Source: an uncultured Bacteroidota bacterium (GTDB lineage: Bacteria; Bacteroidota; Bacteroidia; Flavobacteriales; Schleiferiaceae). Taken from it: DNA of 34,641 bases. A program made the translations under genes and the position numbers. Position 1 is the first letter of the stretch. Each line of letters begins with the position of its first letter. Positions 4,456 through 30,673 of this stretch are shown here, in pieces. The stretch is from contig CAJXNI010000027.1 of NCBI GenBank assembly GCA_913057235.1, positions 1-34,641 on the forward strand, written 5' to 3'. The notes below the pieces were generated by a model that did no database searches, had not been told where the DNA came from, and saw nothing but the letters and a program-made list of their open reading frames with translations.

Positions 4456-4485
4456 AGCCTCCCGTTTTACGGGGGGCTTTTTTTT
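4456..4485 (+). terminator. Rho-independent terminator after the DUF2795 gene
   Basis: A 9-bp stem (AGCCTCCCG with CGGGGGGCT, one G-T pair) around a five-base loop is followed by a run of eight T. The run overlaps the stop codon of the convergent rhodanese gene. On the minus strand there is no T run after the hairpin, so it acts mainly on the plus strand. Confidence 0.85.
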
Positions 4486-4993
4486 ACTCATAGGTTTTTT
4501 GGCCGCGGTTTAGCCAAAAACCCCATATGCTGTTGTAGGGGTGAATTTGAAGGGTAGCCCCGCCCTGGGGGGTGTAAATAGTTTTTTCTTGATTGAGCCA
4601 CTCAAAAATGCCTCCGTATAAATTAAATACTTGGGTGTAGCCGGCCTCCTGCAATTTCTCGGCTATTTTTTCACTGCGGTACCCCACCGAACAATAGACC
4701 ACTATGGGATCATTTTTGGCAATGCCGGCAACACGGCTAAGTTGAAAAGAATCATAACCTACGTGAAGCGCTCCTTTTAGGTGACTCACTTTATACTCGG
4801 CCTGCGCACGCGCATCAAGTATCGTAAACTGTGCGTAGTTTGTGGCTAAACTGTCTACTGAGATTTCCGAAACGGAATGACTCAGTAAACCCTTAAGCAT
4901 GGTTCGGTAACCGAAGCTTTCTACCGGTTCTTGCGCCATAGTGCCAATGCTAAAAAGAAGACTGATAAGCCCTAAGCTTATGCAGCGATTCAT
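4484..4993 (-). CDS. Exported single-domain rhodanese-like protein
   Basis: A 169-residue protein with a signal peptide at residues 1-20 (cleavage probably after T-M-A, before Gln21) and one rhodanese domain at about 43-140. The active-site loop C-S-V-G-Y-R-S starts at Cys101, so the sulfur-accepting cysteine is present; L-D-A-R-x-x-x-E-Y (from about 59) and H-L-K-G-A are also typical. It would act in the periplasm or envelope as a sulfurtransferase or persulfide carrier; substrate unknown. The start codon lies two bases after the stop of a broken histidine-kinase gene, so it was probably the last gene of that operon and now appears to be the only intact member. Whether it still has a promoter is unclear; TATTTTAA just upstream is a weak -7 candidate. 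Confidence 0.88.
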   Translation of the reverse strand: MNRCISLGLISLLFSIGTMAQEPVESFGYRTMLKGLLSHSVSEISVDSLATNYAQFTILDARAQAEYKVSHLKGALHVGYDSFQLSRVAGIAKNDPIVVYCSVGYRSEKIAEKLQEAGYTQVFNLYGGIFEWLNQEKTIYTPQGGATLQIHPYNSIWGFWLNRGQKTYE

Positions 4994-12814: not shown

Positions 12815-12894
12815 GGTTAATTACCTTGAAGAGAAAGTAAAGTGGCTGTTTGAACTATTGGCTGGTTCTTTTCGTACTTGTTTATAAAGAATAT

Positions 12895-13650
12895 ATGAAA
12901 TTCCTCACCTCGCTAATTGCCTTTACACTCAGTTTTAACCTCAGTGCCCAAAGCTACCTTCAAACCTCTCAAAACCTTTTAAGAGCGCTCAAAAACGGCC
13001 AAGATGCTAGTCCTTTTGTCCGCATAATTGCGGATGCTAATCCGCAGGAGCTGGCCGCACAAATAGACACCGATCAAAAGCGCCTGGCTTTTTGGATAAA
13101 CCTGTACAACGGCTTAATACAGTATAAGCTCAAACAAAATCCTGGTTTGTACGAAGAGCGTGGTGACTTTTTTGGCGATGATATTTTAACCGTAGCGCGC
13201 TCTTCCGTAAGTTTTGATAATATTGAGCATGGCGTTTTAAGGCGGGGCACCTCCAAGTATTCTTATGGTTATTTTAAGAATCCCTTTGGCGGAGATTGGC
13301 ACAAGCCCTACATGGTTGATGAAATTGACTGGCGCATACACTTTGCTTTAAACTGCGGTGCCAGCTCATGCCCACCAGTGCGTATTTACGATGAGGCCAC
13401 TATCAACAGCCAATTAAATGAAAGTACTCAGCAGTATTTGCAAAGTCAGGTGCGTTATAATGCCGATGAGAAGCAAGTTCACCTGCCTAAATTAATGGAT
13501 TGGTTTAGCGGTGACTTTGGCGGAGAAGACGGTGCATTGGAAATTATAAAAAACAGAGGATTTATACCTAGTACCAAGGTGTCAGTAGATTACAATGATT
13601 ACAACTGGACCCTAAAAATTGGCCCCGGTGTATTTTATCAAAATGACTGA
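12895..13650 (+). CDS. Exported DUF547 protein
   Basis: A 251-residue protein with a signal peptide at residues 1-18 (F-N-L-S-A-Q-S region) and a DUF547 domain from about 40 to 225. Typical motifs are F-W-I-N-L-Y-N, I-E-H-G-V-L-R, D-P-type N-P-F-G-G-D and A-L-N-C-G-A-S-S-C-P-P, the last containing the conserved Cys pair. DUF547 proteins have been linked to papain-like cysteine peptidase folds, but a substrate is not known. ATG at 12895 is chosen over the TTG at 12850 because the signal peptide begins there. It lies 80 bases after the barrel gene, on the same strand, and may be part of the sigma operon or its regulon. It nearly touches the convergent aminotransferase gene. Confidence 0.88.
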   Translation: MKFLTSLIAFTLSFNLSAQSYLQTSQNLLRALKNGQDASPFVRIIADANPQELAAQIDTDQKRLAFWINLYNGLIQYKLKQNPGLYEERGDFFGDDILTVARSSVSFDNIEHGVLRRGTSKYSYGYFKNPFGGDWHKPYMVDEIDWRIHFALNCGASSCPPVRIYDEATINSQLNESTQQYLQSQVRYNADEKQVHLPKLMDWFSGDFGGEDGALEIIKNRGFIPSTKVSVDYNDYNWTLKIGPGVFYQND

Positions 13651-21868: not shown

Positions 21869-22978
21869 ATGTTTAAACCTGGAACTGAACTGCATTATCA
21901 AATTGCCTTAACCTTAACCCACGGTCTTGGCCCTCGGCTAGCTAAAAGGCTCATCAGTACTTTTGGCAGTGCTCAGGCTGTTTTTAAGGCCTCCCAAAAG
22001 GACTTGGCTCAGGTAGAGCGCATAACTCAACCGGTTTTGTCCGATTTAAAAAACACTAAACATCTGGCTAGAGCCGAACAAGAATTAGAGTTCATGGAAA
22101 AGCATGGGCTCAAGGCCCACTTCTTTCTAGATAAAAGCTACCCTCGCAGACTGCGCCACTGTGAAGACGGCCCGCTCATTTTGTATCAAAAAGGAAACTG
22201 CAACCTTAATAGGGCCAAGGTTTTGGCGGTGGTTGGCACCCGTAACGCTACAGACTATGGTAAAAACTTTACGGCCAGGTTTACGGAGGAACTCAAGAAC
22301 ATGAGCCCCTTAATTGTAAGCGGTATGGCCTACGGTATTGACGCGGCTGCTCACCGGGGTGCTTTAGACCACAAAATACCTACCGTAGGGGTTATGGCCC
22401 ACGGTTTAGATAAAGTTTACCCGCATCTGCATCGTAAACTAGCGGAGGAGATTATAGCGGCCGGGGGCGCTCTCATCTCTGAATTTATAAGCGGATCTAA
22501 GCCCGATAGGGAAAACTTTCCAAAACGAAACCGCATTATTGCCGGCATGAGCGATGCTACCTTGGTGGTAGAGGCGGGCAAAAAGGGTGGAGCTCTCATT
22601 ACCGCAGACTTAGCCAATAGCTACCACCGCGATGTTTTTGCCGTGCCAGGCCGCGTAAATGATCGTTCCAGTGAAGGATGCAATCAACTTATTAAAAGCA
22701 ATCAGGCGGCTTTATTCACCGGAGTAAAAGACTTGGAATACATTATGGGCTGGCAGCAAGATAAATCTAAAACCATTCAGTCTGAGCTTTTTACCAGCCT
22801 TACGGCCGAAGAGCAGGAACTTTTTGACCTCCTGGAAAAAGAGAACCGCGGCCTAGAGTTAGAATACATTTGCAACCAATTGGGAAAAACCACCTCCAAG
22901 GCATTGCAAGCTTTAATGACTCTTGAACTCAAGGGCATGGTTAGAGCTTTGCCAGGAAAAGTCTACACCAAAGGTTAA
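21869..22978 (+). CDS. dprA: DNA-processing protein DprA/Smf
   Basis: A 369-residue protein that loads RecA on incoming single-stranded DNA during natural transformation. Residues 1-70 hold a helix-hairpin-helix-like domain (L-T-H-G-L-G-P-R-L-A-K-R-L). The Rossmann-like DprA domain spans about 75-290, with A-V-V-G-T-R-N-A-T-D-Y-G and V-S-G-M-A-Y-G-I-D-A-A-A-H-R-G-A-L. Residues F-P-K-R-N-R-I-I-A-G-M-S (about 212-223) are also typical. The C-terminal winged helix (L-E-Y-I-C-N-Q-L-G-K-T-T-S-K-A-L-Q-A-L) is at about 325-355. Length is normal. It sits just upstream of a lone receiver-domain gene. Other competence genes are not seen in the window. Confidence 0.97.
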   Translation: MFKPGTELHYQIALTLTHGLGPRLAKRLISTFGSAQAVFKASQKDLAQVERITQPVLSDLKNTKHLARAEQELEFMEKHGLKAHFFLDKSYPRRLRHCEDGPLILYQKGNCNLNRAKVLAVVGTRNATDYGKNFTARFTEELKNMSPLIVSGMAYGIDAAAHRGALDHKIPTVGVMAHGLDKVYPHLHRKLAEEIIAAGGALISEFISGSKPDRENFPKRNRIIAGMSDATLVVEAGKKGGALITADLANSYHRDVFAVPGRVNDRSSEGCNQLIKSNQAALFTGVKDLEYIMGWQQDKSKTIQSELFTSLTAEEQELFDLLEKENRGLELEYICNQLGKTTSKALQALMTLELKGMVRALPGKVYTKG

Positions 22979-23025
22979 AGCATTTTTTCGAATTGGTTAC
23001 ATTAGCCCAAAATTGCTGGAGGGGC

Positions 23026-23400
23026 ATGGAAACACCTGCAAATCGTAAGCTTTTAATGGCTGAAGACAATGCTATAAATCGTAAGCGGGTAGATTTACTT
23101 TTCCAACGGCATGGTATTACCTTAAATTTTGCCAATAACGGAGAAGATGCATTTAATTATGTGTTAAATGATAGCTTTGACTTGATACTTACGGGTAATG
23201 AAATGCCAATATTAGGCGGTGTTACAGCCACTCAAAAAATAAAAGAAGCATTGGGTGAGCAGGCTCCCCTGATTATCGCCTTAACGGCTCATGCCCTGGA
23301 AGGTGAGCGTGAAGAATTCTTAAACCAGGGTTTTGATGAATACCTAGGTAAGCCCATAAAAATGGAGGAGCTTAATGAACGGGTTCGTGAGCTCCTGTAA
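23026..23400 (+). CDS. Single-domain receiver protein lacking the phospho-acceptor aspartate
   Basis: A 124-residue CheY-like receiver with no output domain. Acidic pocket Glu13-Asp14 (A-E-D-N), the switch Thr87 (L-T-A) and Lys109 (G-K-P-I) are present. The segment D-L-I-L-T-G-N-E-M-P aligns with the usual D-L-I-L-M-D-I-Q-M-P, so the acceptor Asp is Gly57 (GGT). It therefore cannot be phosphorylated in the normal way and may be a pseudo-receiver that binds other partners, or a protein that lost function. ATG at 23026 is chosen over the TTG at 22993 because residues before it are not conserved in the family. It lies 47 bases after dprA on the same strand. Confidence 0.85.
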   Translation: METPANRKLLMAEDNAINRKRVDLLFQRHGITLNFANNGEDAFNYVLNDSFDLILTGNEMPILGGVTATQKIKEALGEQAPLIIALTAHALEGEREEFLNQGFDEYLGKPIKMEELNERVRELL

Positions 23401-23420: not shown

Positions 23421-24122
23421 TTGGCCACTCTCAATCCCTATTTAAGTATTATTATCCCCACCTTTAATGAGGAGGCAAACCTCAAGCGCTTAGCGCCCCA
23501 TATTTCGGCTCCGCATATTCAGGTAATTGTAAGTGACGGAGGCAGCACAGACGACACCCCTCAATTGGCCCGTGAGCTAGGCTTTGCAGTAGTCAAGTCT
23601 CCTAAAAAAGGCCGAGGCCCTCAACTTAACCAAGGCGCAAAGCTGGCTAAGGCGCCGGTGCTCTTTTTTCTGCATGCAGATTGTAAGCCACCAGAAGGAT
23701 TTGATCAAGCTATTAAGCAAACCATAGCCAAAGGCTATAGCAGTGGTTGCTTTAGATTGCAATTTGATTGGAACCACTGGCTATTAAGTTTTAGCGCCTA
23801 CCTCACCCGTTTTAATTTTAATGCAGTGCGTTTTGGAGACCAGGGTTTCTTTGTAACCCATGCGCTTTGGCAACAATTACACGGCTATAACACAGAGCTA
23901 CTATTAATGGAAGATCAAGATATTGTGCGCAGAGCGCGAAAACTCGAGACTTTTAAAATTGTGGCTAAACCAATGCTTACTTCGGCCCGTAAGTATAGAG
24001 CCAACGGAGCCCTGCGTTTACAGTGGATTTATTTTAACATTTGGTGGCGCTTTTACAGAGGCTATCCTCAAAAGGAATTACTAAATTATTACCGTCAAAA
24101 AATAGTTGATGACCGGCAGTAA
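23421..24122 (+). CDS. TIGR04283-family glycosyltransferase 2 (arsenosugar-associated)
   Basis: A 233-residue GT-A-fold family 2 glycosyltransferase. The nucleotide-sugar site reads S-I-I-I-P-T-F-N-E-E near residue 9, V-I-V-S-D-G-G-S-T-D-D-T near 36, and F-F-L-H-A-D-C-K-P-P with the metal-binding D near 79. The G-F-D-Q-A-I and F-G-D-Q-G-F-F segments fit the TIGR04283 subfamily. These proteins usually stand beside TIGR04282 partners and have been tied to arsenosugar synthesis mainly by gene neighbourhood, so the sugar acceptor is unproven. The start is TTG (M-A-T-L-N-P-Y-L); no in-frame ATG precedes the motif. It overlaps the next gene by 14 bases. Confidence 0.88.
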   Translation: MATLNPYLSIIIPTFNEEANLKRLAPHISAPHIQVIVSDGGSTDDTPQLARELGFAVVKSPKKGRGPQLNQGAKLAKAPVLFFLHADCKPPEGFDQAIKQTIAKGYSSGCFRLQFDWNHWLLSFSAYLTRFNFNAVRFGDQGFFVTHALWQQLHGYNTELLLMEDQDIVRRARKLETFKIVAKPMLTSARKYRANGALRLQWIYFNIWWRFYRGYPQKELLNYYRQKIVDDRQ

Positions 24123-24717
24123 ATCTTCCCGTACGTTATTAATTTTTGTTAAACAACCCATCCCCGGAAGGGTGAAAACCAGGCTGGGTAAAAGCATTGG
24201 CCACCCGGCTGCTGCCGAAGTGTATAAAAAACTATTACACCACACCAAGCAAGAAGCTATGAAGGTGGCCGCCCAGCGCCAAGTATGGTATGGCCAGGCT
24301 GTAGCCGATGATGATTTATGGCAGGCGCCACATTTTACCCGGTATGCTCAGCCGCAAGAAGACCTGGGCGGCCGCATGGCATTCGCCTTTAAAGAGGCCT
24401 TTGCCCAGGGAGCACAAAAAGTGGTGATTATTGGTTCAGACTGTCCGCAGTTAAGTGCCTCAGTTGTAGAGCAAGCGTTTGAAGTCCTGGATCATGATGA
24501 GGTAGTGCTTGGCCCTGCAGCCGATGGGGGTTATTACCTCTTAGGTCTGCGTCATTTTTATGACCTTTTTAATCGGGTGAATTGGAGCACGGCTCAGGTT
24601 CTAGCCCAAACCCAGGAAAAAATTGAACAGAATGGCCTAAGTTTTCAACTTTTGCCCACCTTAAGCGATTTAGATACTCTAGAAGATTTAAAGAAATTTC
24701 CAGAATATGACCCATAA
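24109..24717 (+). CDS. TIGR04282-family glycosyltransferase (DUF2064)
   Basis: A 202-residue nucleotidyltransferase-like protein of the DUF2064/TIGR04282 family. It shows L-L-I-F-V-K-Q-P-I-P-G-R-V-K-T-R-L-G near residue 10, E-D-L-G-G-R-M near 85, V-V-I-I-G-S-D-C-P-Q-L near 107, and L-G-P-A-A-D-G-G-Y-Y-L-L-G near 135. These resemble CofC/MobA-type sugar-phosphate or nucleotide binding sites. It is the usual partner of the TIGR04283 protein. ATG at 24109 overlaps the previous gene by 14 bases and its end overlaps the next gene by 11, so the three are translationally coupled. Confidence 0.88.
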   Translation: MTGSKSSRTLLIFVKQPIPGRVKTRLGKSIGHPAAAEVYKKLLHHTKQEAMKVAAQRQVWYGQAVADDDLWQAPHFTRYAQPQEDLGGRMAFAFKEAFAQGAQKVVIIGSDCPQLSASVVEQAFEVLDHDEVVLGPAADGGYYLLGLRHFYDLFNRVNWSTAQVLAQTQEKIEQNGLSFQLLPTLSDLDTLEDLKKFPEYDP

Positions 24718-25519
24718 ACTTGAAGAAGCTACCGCCTTTTTAAAACAAAATGGTTTTGCCAACCCCGATGTTGGCCTTGTACTAGGTACCGGCCTGGGCA
24801 AGTTTATTGACCACCTAAAAATAGAAAAGTCCATTCCGTACCAACGCATTCCACATTTTCCGGTGGCTACTATGGAGTTTCATGCCGGGCACTTGATTTT
24901 AGGCACCATTGGCCAGCAAAAGGTATTGGCCATGAAAGGGCGCTTTCATTTTTACGAGGGCTATAGCATGCAGGAAATCACATTCCCCATAAGGGTGATG
25001 AAAATGCTAGGCATTAAAAAGCTTTTACTTTCCAATGCTGCGGGCGGTATAAACCTTGATTTTAAGAAAGGCGACTTGGTGCTCATTGAAGATCACATCA
25101 ATCTACAACCCGCCAACCCTTTAACGGGCACCAACTTAGATAATTTAGGTCCACGGTTTCCCGATATGAGCGAACCCTACAGCCTGCAATTGATTAACCA
25201 ACTAAAGTCCATAGCCCAAAAAGAGCACATCACTTTAAAAGAAGGTGTGTATGTTTCCGTGTCCGGGCCCAATTTAGAAACCAGGGCAGAGTACCGGTAT
25301 TTAAAAATTATTGGAGCCGACATGGTAGGCATGAGCACCGTACCTGAGGTTATTGTAGCGCGCCACATGAATTTACCGGTTTTGGCCGTATCGGTTATTA
25401 CCGATGAATGCGACCCCAAAAACCTACAACCCGTAAACATTGAGGAAATTATTGAGGTAGCCGGCACGGCCGATGAAAAGTTGAGCCAACTTTTTGCTCA
25501 ATTAATTTCTGAAGCATAG
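24707..25519 (+). CDS. Purine nucleoside phosphorylase, trimeric family
   Basis: A 270-residue enzyme that splits purine nucleosides with phosphate to base and pentose-1-phosphate. The phosphate-site residues are in G-T-G-L-G (27-31) and H-A-G-H (59-62). The N-A-A-G-G motif is at 110-114 and Glu191 lies in N-L-E-T-R-A-E. The G-M-S-T-V-P-E-V-I-V-A-R-H block (208-220) is nearly identical to human PNP. Aligned to human PNP without gaps, Asn243 (6-oxopurine contact) is here Asp233 in V-I-T-D-E. That change is known in human PNP to allow adenosine, so 6-aminopurine nucleosides may be accepted. It overlaps the preceding glycosyltransferase gene. Confidence 0.93.
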   Translation: MTHKLEEATAFLKQNGFANPDVGLVLGTGLGKFIDHLKIEKSIPYQRIPHFPVATMEFHAGHLILGTIGQQKVLAMKGRFHFYEGYSMQEITFPIRVMKMLGIKKLLLSNAAGGINLDFKKGDLVLIEDHINLQPANPLTGTNLDNLGPRFPDMSEPYSLQLINQLKSIAQKEHITLKEGVYVSVSGPNLETRAEYRYLKIIGADMVGMSTVPEVIVARHMNLPVLAVSVITDECDPKNLQPVNIEEIIEVAGTADEKLSQLFAQLISEA

Positions 25520-25591
25520 CCAGGCTCATTCACAAATTTTCCAAAATTCATTTCACCATTCGGTATAAACTCCATTTAATTCCATTGCCAC

Positions 25592-27028
25592 ATGAATAGT
25601 CACTATGACATTATTGTAATTGGGGCCGGTTCTGGAGGCTTAGGAGTTGGCATTGGTATGGCCAAGTTTGGCTTTAAAGTGCTAATGGTTGAAAAAAACC
25701 AGCACAACTTTGGCGGTGAGTGCTTAAACTCAGGCTGCATACCTAGCAAGGCGCTTATTCATGTGGCCAATACCTTGGCGCAAGCGCGTGAAAGCACCCA
25801 GTTTGGTTTTACCCTTACGGGCGAAACTAATTTAGACCGGGTACTAGAGTACGTTCACTCCAGGCAGGATATTATTCGTGCGCATGAAAGTCCTCAGTAT
25901 TTAAGAGAAGAAGGCATAGACGTTGAAATTGGTGAAGCGCACTTTACGGGTAAGCAGGAAATTGAAGTTAACGGCCAGAAGGTCAAGGCCAAAAGAATTT
26001 TGGTGGCTACGGGCTCCAAGCCCCGCATGATTCAAGTGCCAGGCCAGGAGCAAATGAAAGTGTACACCAATGAAAGCCTGTTTAACCTAAAAACACTTCC
26101 TAAAAACCTTTTGGTGGTAGGTGCGGGGCCCATTGGCCTGGAAATGAGCCAGTGCTTTGCGCGCTTAGGATCTAAGGTGGTGGTAACCGACCGGGGTAAC
26201 CGAATCATGAATAAAGAGCTACCAGAGGTTTCGGCTTTGGTGCAGGAGCGGTTGGAACAAGAAGGAATTGCGTTTCAACTCAACTGTGAGCTGCAGGCCT
26301 TTGAAGACGGCCAGCTCGCCTTGCTCAAAAATGAAAATGGGCAAACTCAAAAAGTTCCCTGTGATGCCGTTTTGGTGGGTATTGGCAGAGAGATTTCCTA
26401 CCAGGGTCTCCAATTGGAAAAGGCCGGAGTGAAAATGAAAAAGAGCCGCCCCATCATTGACGACTACCTGCGGGCCAAAGGCAACTCAAAGGTGGTGTTT
26501 GCGGGTGATGCCGCGCAAACGCTCTTATTCTCCCATGCGGCTGAATTGCACACCACTATTTTGCTCACCAACTTTTTTAGCCCCTGGCCCTTCAAGAAAA
26601 AGTGGACTACCGACAATTTTAGCTGGGTAACCTTTACCGACCCACAAGTGGCCACCTTTGGTTTAAGCCAAAGTGAGATAGAAAACCGTGGTTTGGCCTA
26701 TGATAAAATTGATTTTAAAATGGATGGTGATGACCGTGCCACCACCTCCAACTACCGCTACGGCCGCCTGATTCTTTTCTTGAAAAAGAACCGCTTAAAC
26801 CCCCGTAACGGAAAAATTTTGGGTGGCACCATTGTAGCGCCCAATGCCGGAGAAATGATTCAGGAACTTATTTTGGCTAAAGAAAAAGGTTTAGGGGCCG
26901 GGGCTCTTTTTAATAAAGTGTATCCCTATCCCACCCAGAGCCGGGTTACAAAAATCGCCCTAGTGGAAGAATTTTCGGGAGGCCTTACGCCTGCTATAAA
27001 AAAGCTTCTGCGGCTTTTATACCACTAA
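25592..27028 (+). CDS. FAD-dependent pyridine nucleotide-disulfide oxidoreductase, MerA/Lpd-like
   Basis: A 478-residue flavoprotein. FAD motif G-A-G-S-G-G is at residues 11-16; the redox pair is Cys44 and Cys49 in G-G-E-C-L-N-S-G-C. A second Rossmann motif V-V-G-A-G-P-I-G-L-E lies near 177, and F-A-G-D-A-A-Q near 304 closes the flavin site. The dimerisation domain is present, but the usual catalytic H-P-Y-P-T-x-x-E motif is Y-P-Y-P-T-Q-S-R, so the His and Glu of lipoamide dehydrogenase are missing. It is often labelled mercuric reductase, but there is no N-terminal or C-terminal extra Cys pair to support this. It follows the PNP gene by 72 bases; joint function is likely but unproven. Confidence 0.9.
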   Translation: MNSHYDIIVIGAGSGGLGVGIGMAKFGFKVLMVEKNQHNFGGECLNSGCIPSKALIHVANTLAQARESTQFGFTLTGETNLDRVLEYVHSRQDIIRAHESPQYLREEGIDVEIGEAHFTGKQEIEVNGQKVKAKRILVATGSKPRMIQVPGQEQMKVYTNESLFNLKTLPKNLLVVGAGPIGLEMSQCFARLGSKVVVTDRGNRIMNKELPEVSALVQERLEQEGIAFQLNCELQAFEDGQLALLKNENGQTQKVPCDAVLVGIGREISYQGLQLEKAGVKMKKSRPIIDDYLRAKGNSKVVFAGDAAQTLLFSHAAELHTTILLTNFFSPWPFKKKWTTDNFSWVTFTDPQVATFGLSQSEIENRGLAYDKIDFKMDGDDRATTSNYRYGRLILFLKKNRLNPRNGKILGGTIVAPNAGEMIQELILAKEKGLGAGALFNKVYPYPTQSRVTKIALVEEFSGGLTPAIKKLLRLLYH

Positions 27029-27106: not shown

Positions 27107-27946
27107 ATGAAGTTTCTTTCCTTTTTAGCGGCCACTTTGTTTTCTACCCTTTTAATGAGCCAAAGCATAACCGGAGTAGCCACCTATAAAACCCTTACAG
27201 ATCTACCTTTTAAAATGGACAGCACCAGTGCCAGCCCAGACCAACAGGCCATGATTCAAAAATTAATGGCCAAGGAGCTGCGCAAAGAATACACCTTAAC
27301 CTTTAATAGACAAGAGTCTGTTTTTAAAGAGGTAGAGGAGCTGGAAAAGGAAGGGGGCTTGCGAATGGGCGGCTTTATGTCAATGTTTGGTGGGGCCAGC
27401 GGCCTCATTTACAAAGACCTCAAAAATCAGCAGTTTGCCGAGCAGAAGGAGTTTTTTAGCAAGAAGTTTTTAATAAAAGACAGCCTAAGCCAATACCAGT
27501 GGCAGCTAGGTAAAGAAACCAAAAGCATTGGCAAGTACACTTGTTACAAGGCTACTGCCACTAAGGTTTTTGAGCGCATGACCCTATCGCGCAACAGCGA
27601 GGGTGAAACTAAGGATAGTACCTATTCAGACACCATTAATCTCACCGCTTGGTACACCATGCAAATCCCCATTAGCAATGGCCCCGATAAATACGGAGGT
27701 TTGCCTGGCCTAATCATGGAGCTAAACAATGGCTCTACAGTGATGCTTTGCACTAAAGTGGTGCTTAATCCTACAGAGCCTGTTGAAATTGAGGCACCTA
27801 CCGAGGGCGAAGAGGTTTCATTAGAGGAATACTCGGAAATTACTTTTGAGAAAATTAAGCAGATGCAAAAAATGTACAAGAGCCGCGCTGGTGAGGGAGG
27901 CGGTCGCGGCCGAGGAGGCAGCATGACCATAACCATTGGTGGTTAA
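27107..27946 (+). CDS. GLPGLI family exported protein
   Basis: A 279-residue protein with a signal peptide at about residues 1-19 (T-L-L-M-S-Q-S) and the literal signature G-G-L-P-G-L-I at 197-203, from which the family TIGR01200 takes its name. The rest reads as strands of a lipocalin- or beta-sandwich-like domain with a Glu-rich segment near 225-250. The C-terminal tail is Gly/Arg-rich (residues 262-272). Function unknown; the family is usually encoded next to a large outer-membrane barrel, as here (34 bases downstream). Both are expected to face the periplasm or outer membrane, so the pair probably forms one envelope system. Confidence 0.93.
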   Translation: MKFLSFLAATLFSTLLMSQSITGVATYKTLTDLPFKMDSTSASPDQQAMIQKLMAKELRKEYTLTFNRQESVFKEVEELEKEGGLRMGGFMSMFGGASGLIYKDLKNQQFAEQKEFFSKKFLIKDSLSQYQWQLGKETKSIGKYTCYKATATKVFERMTLSRNSEGETKDSTYSDTINLTAWYTMQIPISNGPDKYGGLPGLIMELNNGSTVMLCTKVVLNPTEPVEIEAPTEGEEVSLEEYSEITFEKIKQMQKMYKSRAGEGGGRGRGGSMTITIGG

Positions 27947-27979
27947 ACCTTTCATTCATTTCGCACTCTTAACTTTTTT

Positions 27980-30673
27980 ATGCAAAAAATTCTCTTTACC
28001 GCCTGTGCTTTGCTAAGCGCCTTTTGGGGCTTCGCCCAAAAAACGGAGTTAAACGGCACACTTCTCGATGAAAATCAGGCCCCGCTGGAAATGGCCAATG
28101 TGTTGGTGCAAAACGCACAAGACAGCAGCATGGTTACCTACGGCTTTACCGATGCCGATGGCCAATTTCGGTTTAAACTACCCACCGGCAAAAAGTACCT
28201 TTTGGCCATTTCCTACTTGGGTTATCGCAGTCGTTTGGTACCGGTAACCCTTTCGGGCGAAAGCCAAAACCTAACCATTGAATTGGAGCCGGATACTGAA
28301 ACCCTGGCAGAGGTAGAGGTGGTGGATGAGATGCCGGTGGTGATTACGGGTGACACCATTTCGTACAAAGCAGATGCTTTTACCACCGGGCAAGAACAAA
28401 AGCTGGAAGACGTGTTAAAAAGGCTGCCCGGAGTGGAGGTAGATGAAGATGGCCAGGTAAAAGTAGAGGGCAAAACCGTGGAGAAAGTAATGGTTGAGGG
28501 CAAGGATTTTTTTGACGGAGACAGCAAAATTGCCACCAAAAATATTCCGGCTGATGCGGTAGACAAAGTGCAGGTGGTACGTAATTATGAAGAAGTGCAA
28601 CCCTTAGCGGGTTTAAGCACCGAAGACCGGGTAGCGCTAAACATAAAATTGAAGGAAGGCAAGAAAAACCTTTGGTTTGGTGATTACGAAGCCAAGGTGG
28701 GCGACCCGGAACGCTACCTGGCCCATACCAACGCCTTTTTTTACAGCCCCAAGGCCAGCTTTAATGTTATTGGCGATATCAACAACCTGGGCAAACCTGC
28801 TTTTACACTGCGCGATTATTTCCGCTTTTCAGGCGGATTTAGGAACCTCGCCAATCGCTCAGGTTCTAACTTTCAATTTGCCATTGATGATATTGGTATT
28901 CCCCTGGGTCAAAATAACCGTGCTGAAAATATGGTTAGCCGTTTTGGAGCCGCCAACTTCAATTATTCGCCCTCCAAAAAATTAACCGTTTCCGGTTTTT
29001 TTATTGTGAATGAAAGTGTGATTAGCAGCCCCTATACCACCACGCGTACCTACATTGGTTTAGACAGTTTAAACGGCACGGAAAATTTAGATGCGCAAAA
29101 CCACCAGCACCCCTTAACCACGCTGGGCAAAGTAAGTGCCGTGTACAAGCCAGACCCCAGCCTGCAGGTGAATTACGATGCCTTTGCCAAATACTCCAAC
29201 CAGCGCAATAGTACCGGACTGTTTTCAGATTTTGGTGATTTTCAAAACGACTTAACCACCCGTAGCCGGCAAGAGCCCTACGAGCTAAAGCAAGAACTGG
29301 GCTTTTTTAAAGAGGCTGGTAAAAGTGTGTACCGCGTAGAAGCGCAGTACCTGATAAAAAGGCAAGACCCTACATTTGCCCTCAGCTCTAACCAGCCGCT
29401 TTTTGTGCCGCTTTTTACAGAGCTCAGAGACTCGCTTACCCTCTTTAACAATCTGGTTCAAAACCAGGTAGTGAACAGTCGCCAGTTTCAAGGCAGTGCC
29501 TCCTATTACTATATCTTAAATGGAAAAAACCACCTGGAGCTTTCGGCCGGTACCAATTTAAATAACCAGGATTTTGAGTCGGCTTTAGCCGAAGGTGAAA
29601 TTGCCGACCAGCAGGCCTTCCCCGATTCTGTGTTAAACAACCAAGCCGATTTTAGCCTCAATGATTACTTTGCTGGGTTGCATTGGAAAGCCAAGCTGGG
29701 TAAGTTCACGATTCGCCCAGGAGTTAATTTCCACAACTACCAAATATTTGATGCCCAAAACGGCACCACAGAGACGCAAAACTACAACCTGGTATTACCC
29801 GATGCTTTTGTGCGCTATGCCTTTGGTAAAAGTGAAAACCTAACCTTGCGCTACAGTTTACAAGCGCAGTTTTTTGATATCAACCAGGTGTTTGACGGTA
29901 TTATTCTGCAAAGCTACAACAGCCTTTTTCAGGGAAGCAATGACTTGAGAAACGCCACCTTGCACAATCTCAATTTGTCTTATTTTAAGTTTGACATGTT
30001 CAACTTCACCAACATTTTTGCCAGCCTTAATTACAGCCGAACGCTAGATGGAGTGACCAATGCCGTAGATTATTTATTTCAAGGAAGAGAGCGCGTATTT
30101 AAGCCCATCAATTCGCCAGGCTTTAATGAAAACTTCACCGCATCGGGCTCCTGGTCTAGAAAGTTTGAATATTTTAAAACCGATGCCCGCCTCAGCTACA
30201 GCTACAACAACACCAACAATCAAGTGGATCGGCGTAATAATAACAACAGTAGTTTTAATCAGGGGTACACAGCAGGCATAGGCACCAACTTTGAGAAATG
30301 GCCTAACCTTGATGTGAACTATAACTTTACCCATAATAATTATTTGGGCGCCAATACCAGCAGCACCTTTACCAATCACCGCCCGTCATTTGAGCTCACT
30401 GCGGTAGTGTTTAAAGATTTTGTTTTGCGGGGAGAGTATACCTACAACAATTATGGCAATCCGGGAGCAGATGACCGCACCAGCTTTGATTTTTTAGATG
30501 CCCGTGTAGAGTACCAAAAAGAAGGCAGTCCTTGGCTTTTTAGCCTGCAGGGCTTAAACCTGCTCAATACGCAATTCATCCGCGAAGACGGGCTAAGTGA
30601 CAACCTCATAACCACCACCGCCTACACCGTACTGCCGCGTTACCTTTTGGCCGGGGTACGCTATGATCTCTAA
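27980..30673 (+). CDS. Large outer-membrane beta-barrel protein, TonB-receptor-like with carboxypeptidase-like N-terminal domain
   Basis: An 897-residue protein with a signal peptide at about 1-19 (ending W-G-F-A-Q). Residues about 23-108 form a carboxypeptidase-regulatory-like domain (L-N-G-T-L-L-D-E-N, then Y-L-G-Y-R-S-R). A plug-like region follows at about 115-225 (I-T-G-D-T-I-S-Y-K-A-D-A-F, L-E-D-V-L-K-R-L-P-G-V-E-V-D, G-K-D-F-F-D-G-D). Residues 230-897 contain many amphipathic strands typical of an outer-membrane barrel; the C-terminus ends in V-R-Y-D-L. It belongs to the outer membrane protein beta-barrel family (PF14905-like) rather than a classical SusC. No clear TonB box is seen. 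It is operonic with the GLPGLI gene; the cargo is unknown. Confidence 0.9.
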   Translation: MQKILFTACALLSAFWGFAQKTELNGTLLDENQAPLEMANVLVQNAQDSSMVTYGFTDADGQFRFKLPTGKKYLLAISYLGYRSRLVPVTLSGESQNLTIELEPDTETLAEVEVVDEMPVVITGDTISYKADAFTTGQEQKLEDVLKRLPGVEVDEDGQVKVEGKTVEKVMVEGKDFFDGDSKIATKNIPADAVDKVQVVRNYEEVQPLAGLSTEDRVALNIKLKEGKKNLWFGDYEAKVGDPERYLAHTNAFFYSPKASFNVIGDINNLGKPAFTLRDYFRFSGGFRNLANRSGSNFQFAIDDIGIPLGQNNRAENMVSRFGAANFNYSPSKKLTVSGFFIVNESVISSPYTTTRTYIGLDSLNGTENLDAQNHQHPLTTLGKVSAVYKPDPSLQVNYDAFAKYSNQRNSTGLFSDFGDFQNDLTTRSRQEPYELKQELGFFKEAGKSVYRVEAQYLIKRQDPTFALSSNQPLFVPLFTELRDSLTLFNNLVQNQVVNSRQFQGSASYYYILNGKNHLELSAGTNLNNQDFESALAEGEIADQQAFPDSVLNNQADFSLNDYFAGLHWKAKLGKFTIRPGVNFHNYQIFDAQNGTTETQNYNLVLPDAFVRYAFGKSENLTLRYSLQAQFFDINQVFDGIILQSYNSLFQGSNDLRNATLHNLNLSYFKFDMFNFTNIFASLNYSRTLDGVTNAVDYLFQGRERVFKPINSPGFNENFTASGSWSRKFEYFKTDARLSYSYNNTNNQVDRRNNNNSSFNQGYTAGIGTNFEKWPNLDVNYNFTHNNYLGANTSSTFTNHRPSFELTAVVFKDFVLRGEYTYNNYGNPGADDRTSFDFLDARVEYQKEGSPWLFSLQGLNLLNTQFIREDGLSDNLITTTAYTVLPRYLLAGVRYDL

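Follow-up and report, generated by a model that had tools for sequence, protein, structure and literature searches.

Arsenic is adenosylated in oxo-arsenosugar biosynthesis by a radical S-adenosylmethionine (SAM) enzyme, as stated in a passage of PMC12159101 that cites Cheng et al. (2021) on ArsS, and a passage of PMC13077682 has genes that are called arsenosugar glycosyltransferases by annotation. No description of the steps after ArsS was found among open-licence PubMed Central articles searched by title and abstract start, and no literature was found on TIGR04283 or DUF2064, on arsenosugar biosynthesis in connection with TonB, or on arsenosugars with flavobacteria and ATP-binding cassette (ABC) transporters. 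A review states in one passage that the mechanisms by which small organoarsenicals, arsenosugars included, are taken up are largely unknown (PMC12608789). Here we describe a cluster of four genes at positions 23,421 to 27,028 of contig CAJXNI010000027.1 (assembly GCA_913057235.1) from an uncultured bacterium of the family Schleiferiaceae in the Bacteroidota; the window is the whole stretch analysed, 34,641 nucleotides in length. The cluster is most likely a dispersed variant of the arsenosugar-type clusters that lacks ArsS and ArsM and is tied to an importer and to a radical SAM family that we call rSAM9, both encoded on another contig of the same genome, C9.

The four-gene cluster and its relatives

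The four genes lie on the same, forward strand and encode a glycosyltransferase of family 2 (GT2; 23421..24122, 219 bits against the TIGR04283 cut-off of 182, with PF00535), a TIGR04282/DUF2064 protein with a predicted CofC-like nucleotidyltransferase fold (24106..24717, 207 bits against a cut-off of 134), a trimeric-type purine nucleoside phosphorylase (PNP; 24707..25519, 361.4 bits on PRK08202 and 313.8 bits on TIGR01700, over the cut-offs of 218 and 293.35) and a pyridine nucleotide-disulfide oxidoreductase (25592..27028). An earlier reading of the window, made from the sequence only, had placed these genes here with overlaps at both joints of the first three, and we find the same. The first overlap amounts to 14-17 nucleotides, depending on whether the TIGR04282 gene starts at ATG 24109, which is likely, or at TTG 24106, and the second to 11 nucleotides, followed by a gap of 72 nucleotides between PNP and the oxidoreductase.

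The genes of the window match those of clusters with ArsS and ArsM in Aquimarina algicola and Aquimarina aggregata, which upholds the arsenosugar-type gene content proposed by the sequence-only reading. In both species a single run begins with TIGR04169-ArsS-DUF2064B-TonB receptor-substrate-binding protein-two permeases-ATPase-rSAM9 and continues with rhodanese-TIGR04282-PNP-ArsM-DUF547...TIGR04283, the PNP standing between TIGR04282 and the arsenosugar ArsM. Seven members of the A. algicola run exceed curated cut-offs (TIGR04169, ArsS, rhodanese NF045521, TIGR04282, PNP, ArsM NF038099 and TIGR04283), and Ulvibacter litoralis also has the whole run, minus the ArsM label. Since relatives of the window genes and of the C9 genes form one run in the two Aquimarina species, the loci in the window and on C9 appear to be separated portions of a single arsenosugar-type system. 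Among 30 TIGR04282 loci fetched from genomes with rSAM9, the rhodanese adjoins TIGR04282 in 17, and a PNP lies within the 1.5-kb flanks of TIGR04282 in 12.

The gene order is also conserved within the family. Forty relatives, the window's own genome (G000) included, were searched for the TIGR04282 protein, and eight had matches, six of them belonging to the family (G000, G200, G204, G209, G213 and G215). The order GT2-TIGR04282-PNP recurs in four other family genomes (G204, G209, G213 and G215) and is therefore not due to chance; the oxidoreductase comes next in three of the four, the complete order being present in G000, G204, G209 and G213. Protein identities between the window and the family clusters are 42-48% for GT2, 51-55% for TIGR04282, 73-75% for PNP and 63-68% for the oxidoreductase (three genomes). 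In G200, a single locus of about 18 kb contains rSAM9, the importer, DUF2064B, rhodanese, TIGR04282, TIGR04283, DUF547 and the oxidoreductase, together with a methylthioribose (MTR) kinase-like gene, a nucleoside hydrolase and a TonB receptor of a different type. At the DUF2064B locus of G209 (L097), ArsS and a TIGR04169-type gene take the place of rSAM9.

Arsenic genes, rSAM9 and its importer

The absence of arsM and ArsS from the window, pointed out in the sequence-only reading, extends to the whole genome (2.83 Mb, 99.97% complete, 49 contigs). A genome-wide search gave no match over the cut-off to ArsS (TIGR04167, best 27.1 of 300 bits), to arsM (NF008823, best 40.7 of 263 bits) or to the arsenosugar ArsM (NF038099, best 34.9 of 400 bits), and on these scores we reject an ArsS or ArsM elsewhere in this genome; what was found instead was a radical SAM gene of another family, rSAM9. 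No TIGR04169 peroxidase-like protein was labelled in the window or the C9 stretch, no genome-wide TIGR04169 search having been made. NF038099 exceeded its cut-off in none of the six family genomes tested. ArsS is over the cut-off in G209 and G213 and under it in G000, G200 (one contig) and G215, all three of which have rSAM9; the rSAM9 searches in the family left out G204, G209 and G213. It had been suggested that genomes with this gene order and no arsenic-methylation gene would argue for a different product, and here the picture is mixed: NF038099 is found in none of the four genomes with the complete order, yet ArsS is found in two of them, NF008823 having been run only on our own genome among the four.

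Another genome with TIGR04282 and no ArsS over the cut-off (G026) carries an ArsM-like methyltransferase gene, scoring 181 of 263 bits, that overlaps a radical SAM gene of 327 residues without an NCBIfam match at 1e-30 (L118:1435-3461), and similar neighbouring matches to ArsM-like and radical SAM genes occur in several genomes of that family.

On contig C9, a weak TIGR04167 match and a second, weaker DUF2064 gene are located about 7 kb apart. The locus reads, in the order of transcription, DUF2064B (a TIGR04282 paralogue that lacks the K[ST]RL loop), a TonB receptor, a YnjB-like binding protein (NF008633, 362 bits, over 203), two permeases that narrowly miss the gathering threshold of PF00528 (scores of 22.2 and 25.0 against 26.4), an ATPase and rSAM9. 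The distant partners envisaged in the sequence-only reading do exist in the form of this module outside the window, but the radical SAM partner is not ArsS: it belongs to a family unnamed in NCBIfam and is encoded alongside the TonB receptor and ABC importer.

Judged by its sequence, rSAM9 belongs to no radical SAM family named in NCBIfam. The best 25 of its 41 weak NCBIfam matches are all under the cut-off, and the best score against the named radical SAM families is 47 bits, compared to a cut-off of 500. An assignment to a named family was rejected, given the weak NCBIfam matches and PDB sequence matches that were confined to the N-terminal part. The motif CX3CX2C and the cysteines C219, C249-C250 and C311xxC314 are each conserved in 97% or more of the 74 sequences that were aligned. 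The best PDB matches of the predicted fold are EpeE/BtrN-type radical SAM enzymes, in a search that returned assorted radical SAM enzymes.

Genome contigs were scanned for relatives of rSAM9; of the 106 that were found, 80 were kept, mostly Bacteroidota by record title. In their flanks (up to 10 kb per side), the binding protein was labelled in 64 loci, the ATPase in 62, the permeases in 60 and 60, a TonB receptor of the C9 type in 55, DUF2064B in 50, TIGR04282 in 13, PNP in 12, rhodanese in 11, the MTR-kinase-like gene in nine, nucleoside hydrolase in seven, ArsS in five and ArsM in four. These counts are affected by contig ends and by the greedy method of gene calling (rSAM9 itself received its label at 72 of the 80 loci), and the labels are best matches to our own gene clusters, with most members confirmed by NCBIfam in L185 only. 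The ArsM labels are strong in L185 and L192 (at least 600 bits) and weak in L142 and L181 (68-86 bits); the TIGR04282 labels of L152 (96 bits) and L184 (85 bits) are also weak, and no TIGR04282 over the cut-off was found in the genome of L152 (G243). None of importer, receptor and DUF2064B was labelled in five of the 80 loci (L137, L165, L171, L195 and L209). Outside the Bacteroidota (L132, L169, L176, L177, L178, L180 and L182), the record titles name metagenome-assembled genomes of Thalassovita, Chlorobiota, Armatimonadetes, Ignavibacteria and Kapaibacterium, and isolates of Sulfidibacter and Acanthopleuribacter.

For tests of co-occurrence we used 50 of the 80 rSAM9 genomes, chosen by hand with isolates and longer contigs first, and a draw of 198 genomes from the phylum, the make-up of which differs from that of the rSAM9 set. 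TIGR04282 exceeds its cut-off in 48 of the 50 rSAM9 genomes, compared to 123 of the 198 in the phylum draw (Fisher p 4e-7, kinship ignored). Among the genomes with TIGR04282, ArsS occurs in 14 of 48 in the former set and in 77 of 123 in the latter (p 1e-4, kinship again ignored). TIGR04282 and ArsS are strongly linked within the phylum draw (both in 77 genomes, TIGR04282 only in 46, ArsS only in two, neither in 73), in which rSAM9 is rare, with matches at E <= 1e-15 in three of the 198 genomes, one of them a weak match of 61 bits (G167).

Several further genes in the window surround the cluster. A rhodanese of the NF045521 'rhoda_near_glyco' family (4484..4993, reverse strand, 186 bits, over the cut-off of 145) is located 18 kb away and is likely a displaced member of the cluster's system, and a protein of the broad DUF547 family (12850..13650, forward strand, PF04784, 98 bits) is possibly another; DUF547 genes are present in several of the related clusters. 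DprA and a single-domain response regulator (21869..23400, forward strand) are recurrent upstream neighbours in the family, where DprA occurs with or without a response-regulator domain, and we do not think that they are part of the pathway. Downstream of the oxidoreductase (27107-30673) are a GLPGLI-family gene and then a gene for a CarboxypepD_reg/outer-membrane beta-barrel protein of 897 residues, and relatives of both are found downstream of PNP in G215 (L096). The oxidoreductase itself reaches no curated cut-off among the 25 models listed, the best being PRK06370.1-3 (380.6 bits, cut-off 620). It has a CxxxxC motif (C44, C49), no C-terminal vicinal cysteines and no cysteine beyond residue 257 of 478, and we rejected MerA as its identity because these vicinal cysteines are absent and the score is 285.2 bits against a cut-off of 454.45.

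A candidate pathway and its alternatives

The sequence-only reading counted two glycosyltransferases. This stands for TIGR04283, but TIGR04282 has a predicted nucleotidyltransferase fold, although both proteins exceed the cut-offs of the families so named. The structure model of the window protein (predicted local distance difference test score 93.8) gave 355 PDB matches at E <= 0.001. Among the 50 listed, the top match is an uncharacterised homologue (3cgx), the next eight (ranks 2-9, with 16-19% identity) are probable nucleotidyltransferases or of the guanylyltransferase type, and the remainder are mostly nucleotidyltransferases or pyrophosphorylases of nucleoside diphosphate (NDP) sugars. 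The matches after 3cgx include 3-phosphoglycerate guanylyltransferase, Rv2983 (2-phospho-L-lactate guanylyltransferase), KdsB, GlmU and IspD; no ordinary glycosyltransferase was recognised among the 50, one of which is FKRP. The CofC model TIGR03552 matches at E 4e-9 with 36.4 of 105 bits, under its cut-off, and the K[ST]RL motif, which presumably has a role in the binding of nucleoside triphosphates, is present in 44 of 48 TIGR04282 proteins and in none of 60 DUF2064B proteins. As modelled, TIGR04282 is probably a nucleotidyltransferase acting on a sugar-1-phosphate made by PNP, and TIGR04283 is probably the sole glycosyltransferase of the cluster. Because TIGR04282 folds like a nucleotidyltransferase, we favor phosphorolysis, nucleotidylation and one transfer over the action of two glycosyltransferases, and we argue that the TIGR04282 family is misnamed as a glycosyltransferase.

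We propose that PNP would phosphorolyse a 5'-modified adenosine to adenine and a 5-substituted ribose-1-phosphate, which TIGR04282 would nucleotidylate to an NDP-sugar, from which TIGR04283 would move the sugar onto an acceptor to yield a glycoside. The acceptor in arsenosugars is glycerol or a glycerolipid. The disulfide oxidoreductase and the rhodanese may handle reduction or sulfur, and the C9 module could supply the substrate, either as a preformed ribosyl compound that is imported or as a precursor that is imported and adenosylated by rSAM9 in the place of ArsS. Base stripping by a nucleoside-cleaving enzyme, as suggested in the sequence-only reading, is thus plausible in view of the position of PNP between TIGR04282 and ArsM in two Aquimarina species, though as a phosphorolysis ahead of nucleotidylation. 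This offers a concrete and testable order of enzymes: phosphorolysis, nucleotidylation and glycosylation.

An aspartate at the position of Asn243 in human PNP favours adenine, and His257 meets the 5'-hydroxyl. The window PNP has aspartate and isoleucine at these positions, the counterparts of which in methylthioadenosine phosphorylase (MTAP) are Asp220 and Val233. Among 35 PNPs from cluster loci, duplicates included, 33 have the aspartate and all 35 have isoleucine or valine; the two without the aspartate, from L202 and L209, have no TIGR04282 neighbour. PNP together with TIGR04282 was found at nine of the 80 rSAM9 loci, nucleoside hydrolase and/or the MTR-kinase-like gene at ten, and both sets at none, the pattern that two alternative ways of making one ribose-1-phosphate would give. 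At six loci from three Algoriphagus, one Marivirga and two metagenome-assembled genomes (L194, L197, L198, L200, L201 and L204), the ABC importer is followed by the genes for nucleoside hydrolase, the MTR-kinase-like enzyme and rSAM9, and a TonB receptor/SusD-like pair is located close by.

That the window cluster represents the downstream half of an arsenosugar-type pathway from nucleoside to glycoside, with the upstream half on contig C9, is in our view an evenly balanced proposition, in which arsenic as the 5'-substituent is suggested by the genomic context. A number of findings weigh against it. The PNP residues may not be specific to the clusters, the aspartate being present also in chains 4lna and 4m1e, which we take to be from Spirosoma and Planctopirus, and in the PNP of L137, which was not seen beside TIGR04282. 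Neither PNP nor hydrolase or kinase is present in the fetched flanks of 59 of the 80 rSAM9 loci, and PNP and the MTR-kinase-like gene are found together in G182 (L106). The family genome G204 (90% complete) has the four genes and no ArsS over the cut-off, rSAM9 not having been sought there. In the phylum draw, rSAM9 (E <= 1e-15) occurs in only two of the 46 genomes with TIGR04282 and no ArsS (G000 and G045), and ArsS and arsM (NF008823 at 1e-30) are unassociated (both in 45 genomes, ArsS only in 34, arsM only in 61, neither in 58; p 0.47). Nor is rSAM9 a simple substitute for ArsS, since the two coexist in 15 of the 50 rSAM9 genomes, and a general rule that rSAM9 replaces ArsS was dropped for this reason. 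As a separate observation, a recognised arsenite methyltransferase is often missing where ArsS is present: 34 of the 79 ArsS genomes in the draw have no NF008823 match at 1e-30.

One way to obtain arsenosugar-type synthesis without ArsS or arsenic methylation of its own would be for the cell to take up, through the dedicated TonB receptor and ABC importer, extracellular arsenosugars, arsenic nucleosides or methylated arsenicals that other organisms have produced, to process or adenosylate them by rSAM9 and to rebuild them into its own glycoside, an idea that we put forward tentatively. PNP, or nucleoside hydrolase with the MTR-kinase-like enzyme, would then act with TIGR04282 and TIGR04283 in the rebuilding. 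The association of rSAM9, a family unnamed in NCBIfam, with an import system of its own in the Bacteroidota raises the possibility that arsenic sugars are acquired by scavenging in addition to being synthesised. The presence of TIGR04282 does not by itself imply arsenic, since both ArsS and rSAM9 are lacking from 44 of the 123 TIGR04282 genomes in the phylum draw, a count that also goes against the arsenosugar-type pathway. The same enzymes in the same order might instead serve a 5'-substituent other than arsenic (sulfur, selenium, phosphorus or a carbon group) that rSAM9 attaches, and produce another ribosyl glycoside. The lack of ArsS and ArsM over the cut-off in our genome and the distance of rSAM9 from the named radical SAM families are also in line with this explanation, but rSAM9 and the importer are located inside the clusters with ArsS and ArsM in two Aquimarina species, and the sister genomes G209 and G213 carry the window-type cluster along with ArsS; we consider it possible rather than probable.

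PNP exceeds the cut-offs of PRK08202 and TIGR01700, both of them housekeeping models, which would also suit an ordinary purine-salvage enzyme that shares an operon by chance with two sugar enzymes of an unrelated envelope biosynthesis. This is unlikely, however, in view of the recurrence of PNP with TIGR04282 at both the rSAM9 and the TIGR04282 loci and its place between TIGR04282 and ArsM in A. algicola. The glycoside might also resemble a metallophore that is exported, binds metal and returns via the TonB receptor and the ABC importer, and the biosynthetic genes do come with a dedicated receptor, binding protein and importer. Yet no exporter was identified, although no search was aimed at exporters, and at ten of the 80 loci the importer has a nucleoside hydrolase gene, an MTR-kinase-like gene or both in its vicinity, which points to the breakdown of an imported riboside and makes such a cycle distinctly improbable. 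With the genome in 49 contigs, one might imagine that arsenosugars are made in the canonical way and that ArsS and ArsM were lost in assembly gaps, but we give this very little credence given the near-full completeness, the failure of ArsS to reach the cut-off also in G200 and G215, and the lack of NF038099 over the cut-off in all six family genomes tested.

Comparison with known systems

TIGR04282 resembles the CofC/FbiD guanylyltransferases and the NDP-sugar pyrophosphorylases in its predicted fold and in its match to TIGR03552 (4e-9), and differs from them in its low identity to structure ranks 2-9 (16-19%) and in scoring 36 bits on the CofC model, the cut-off of which is 105. The cluster PNPs share with MtnP (MTAP) the aspartate and the isoleucine or valine at the base and 5'-pocket positions, whereas the window PNP remains under the cut-off of TIGR01694 (96.4 of 274.85 bits). 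The MTR-kinase-like gene of the alternative clusters recalls MtnK, with 117.5 bits on TIGR01767, under the cut-off of 275. With the EpeE/BtrN-type radical SAM enzymes that have an auxiliary domain, rSAM9 shares fold matches, the CX3CX2C motif and further conserved cysteines, but at 14-16% identity and a root-mean-square deviation of 5-9 A. Compared to the arsenosugar cluster (TIGR04167, NF038099, TIGR04169, TIGR04282 and TIGR04283), our genome is without ArsS and ArsM over the cut-off, has rSAM9 and an importer, and carries its genes on two contigs, and the window shares with that cluster TIGR04282, TIGR04283, PNP and the NF045521 rhodanese.

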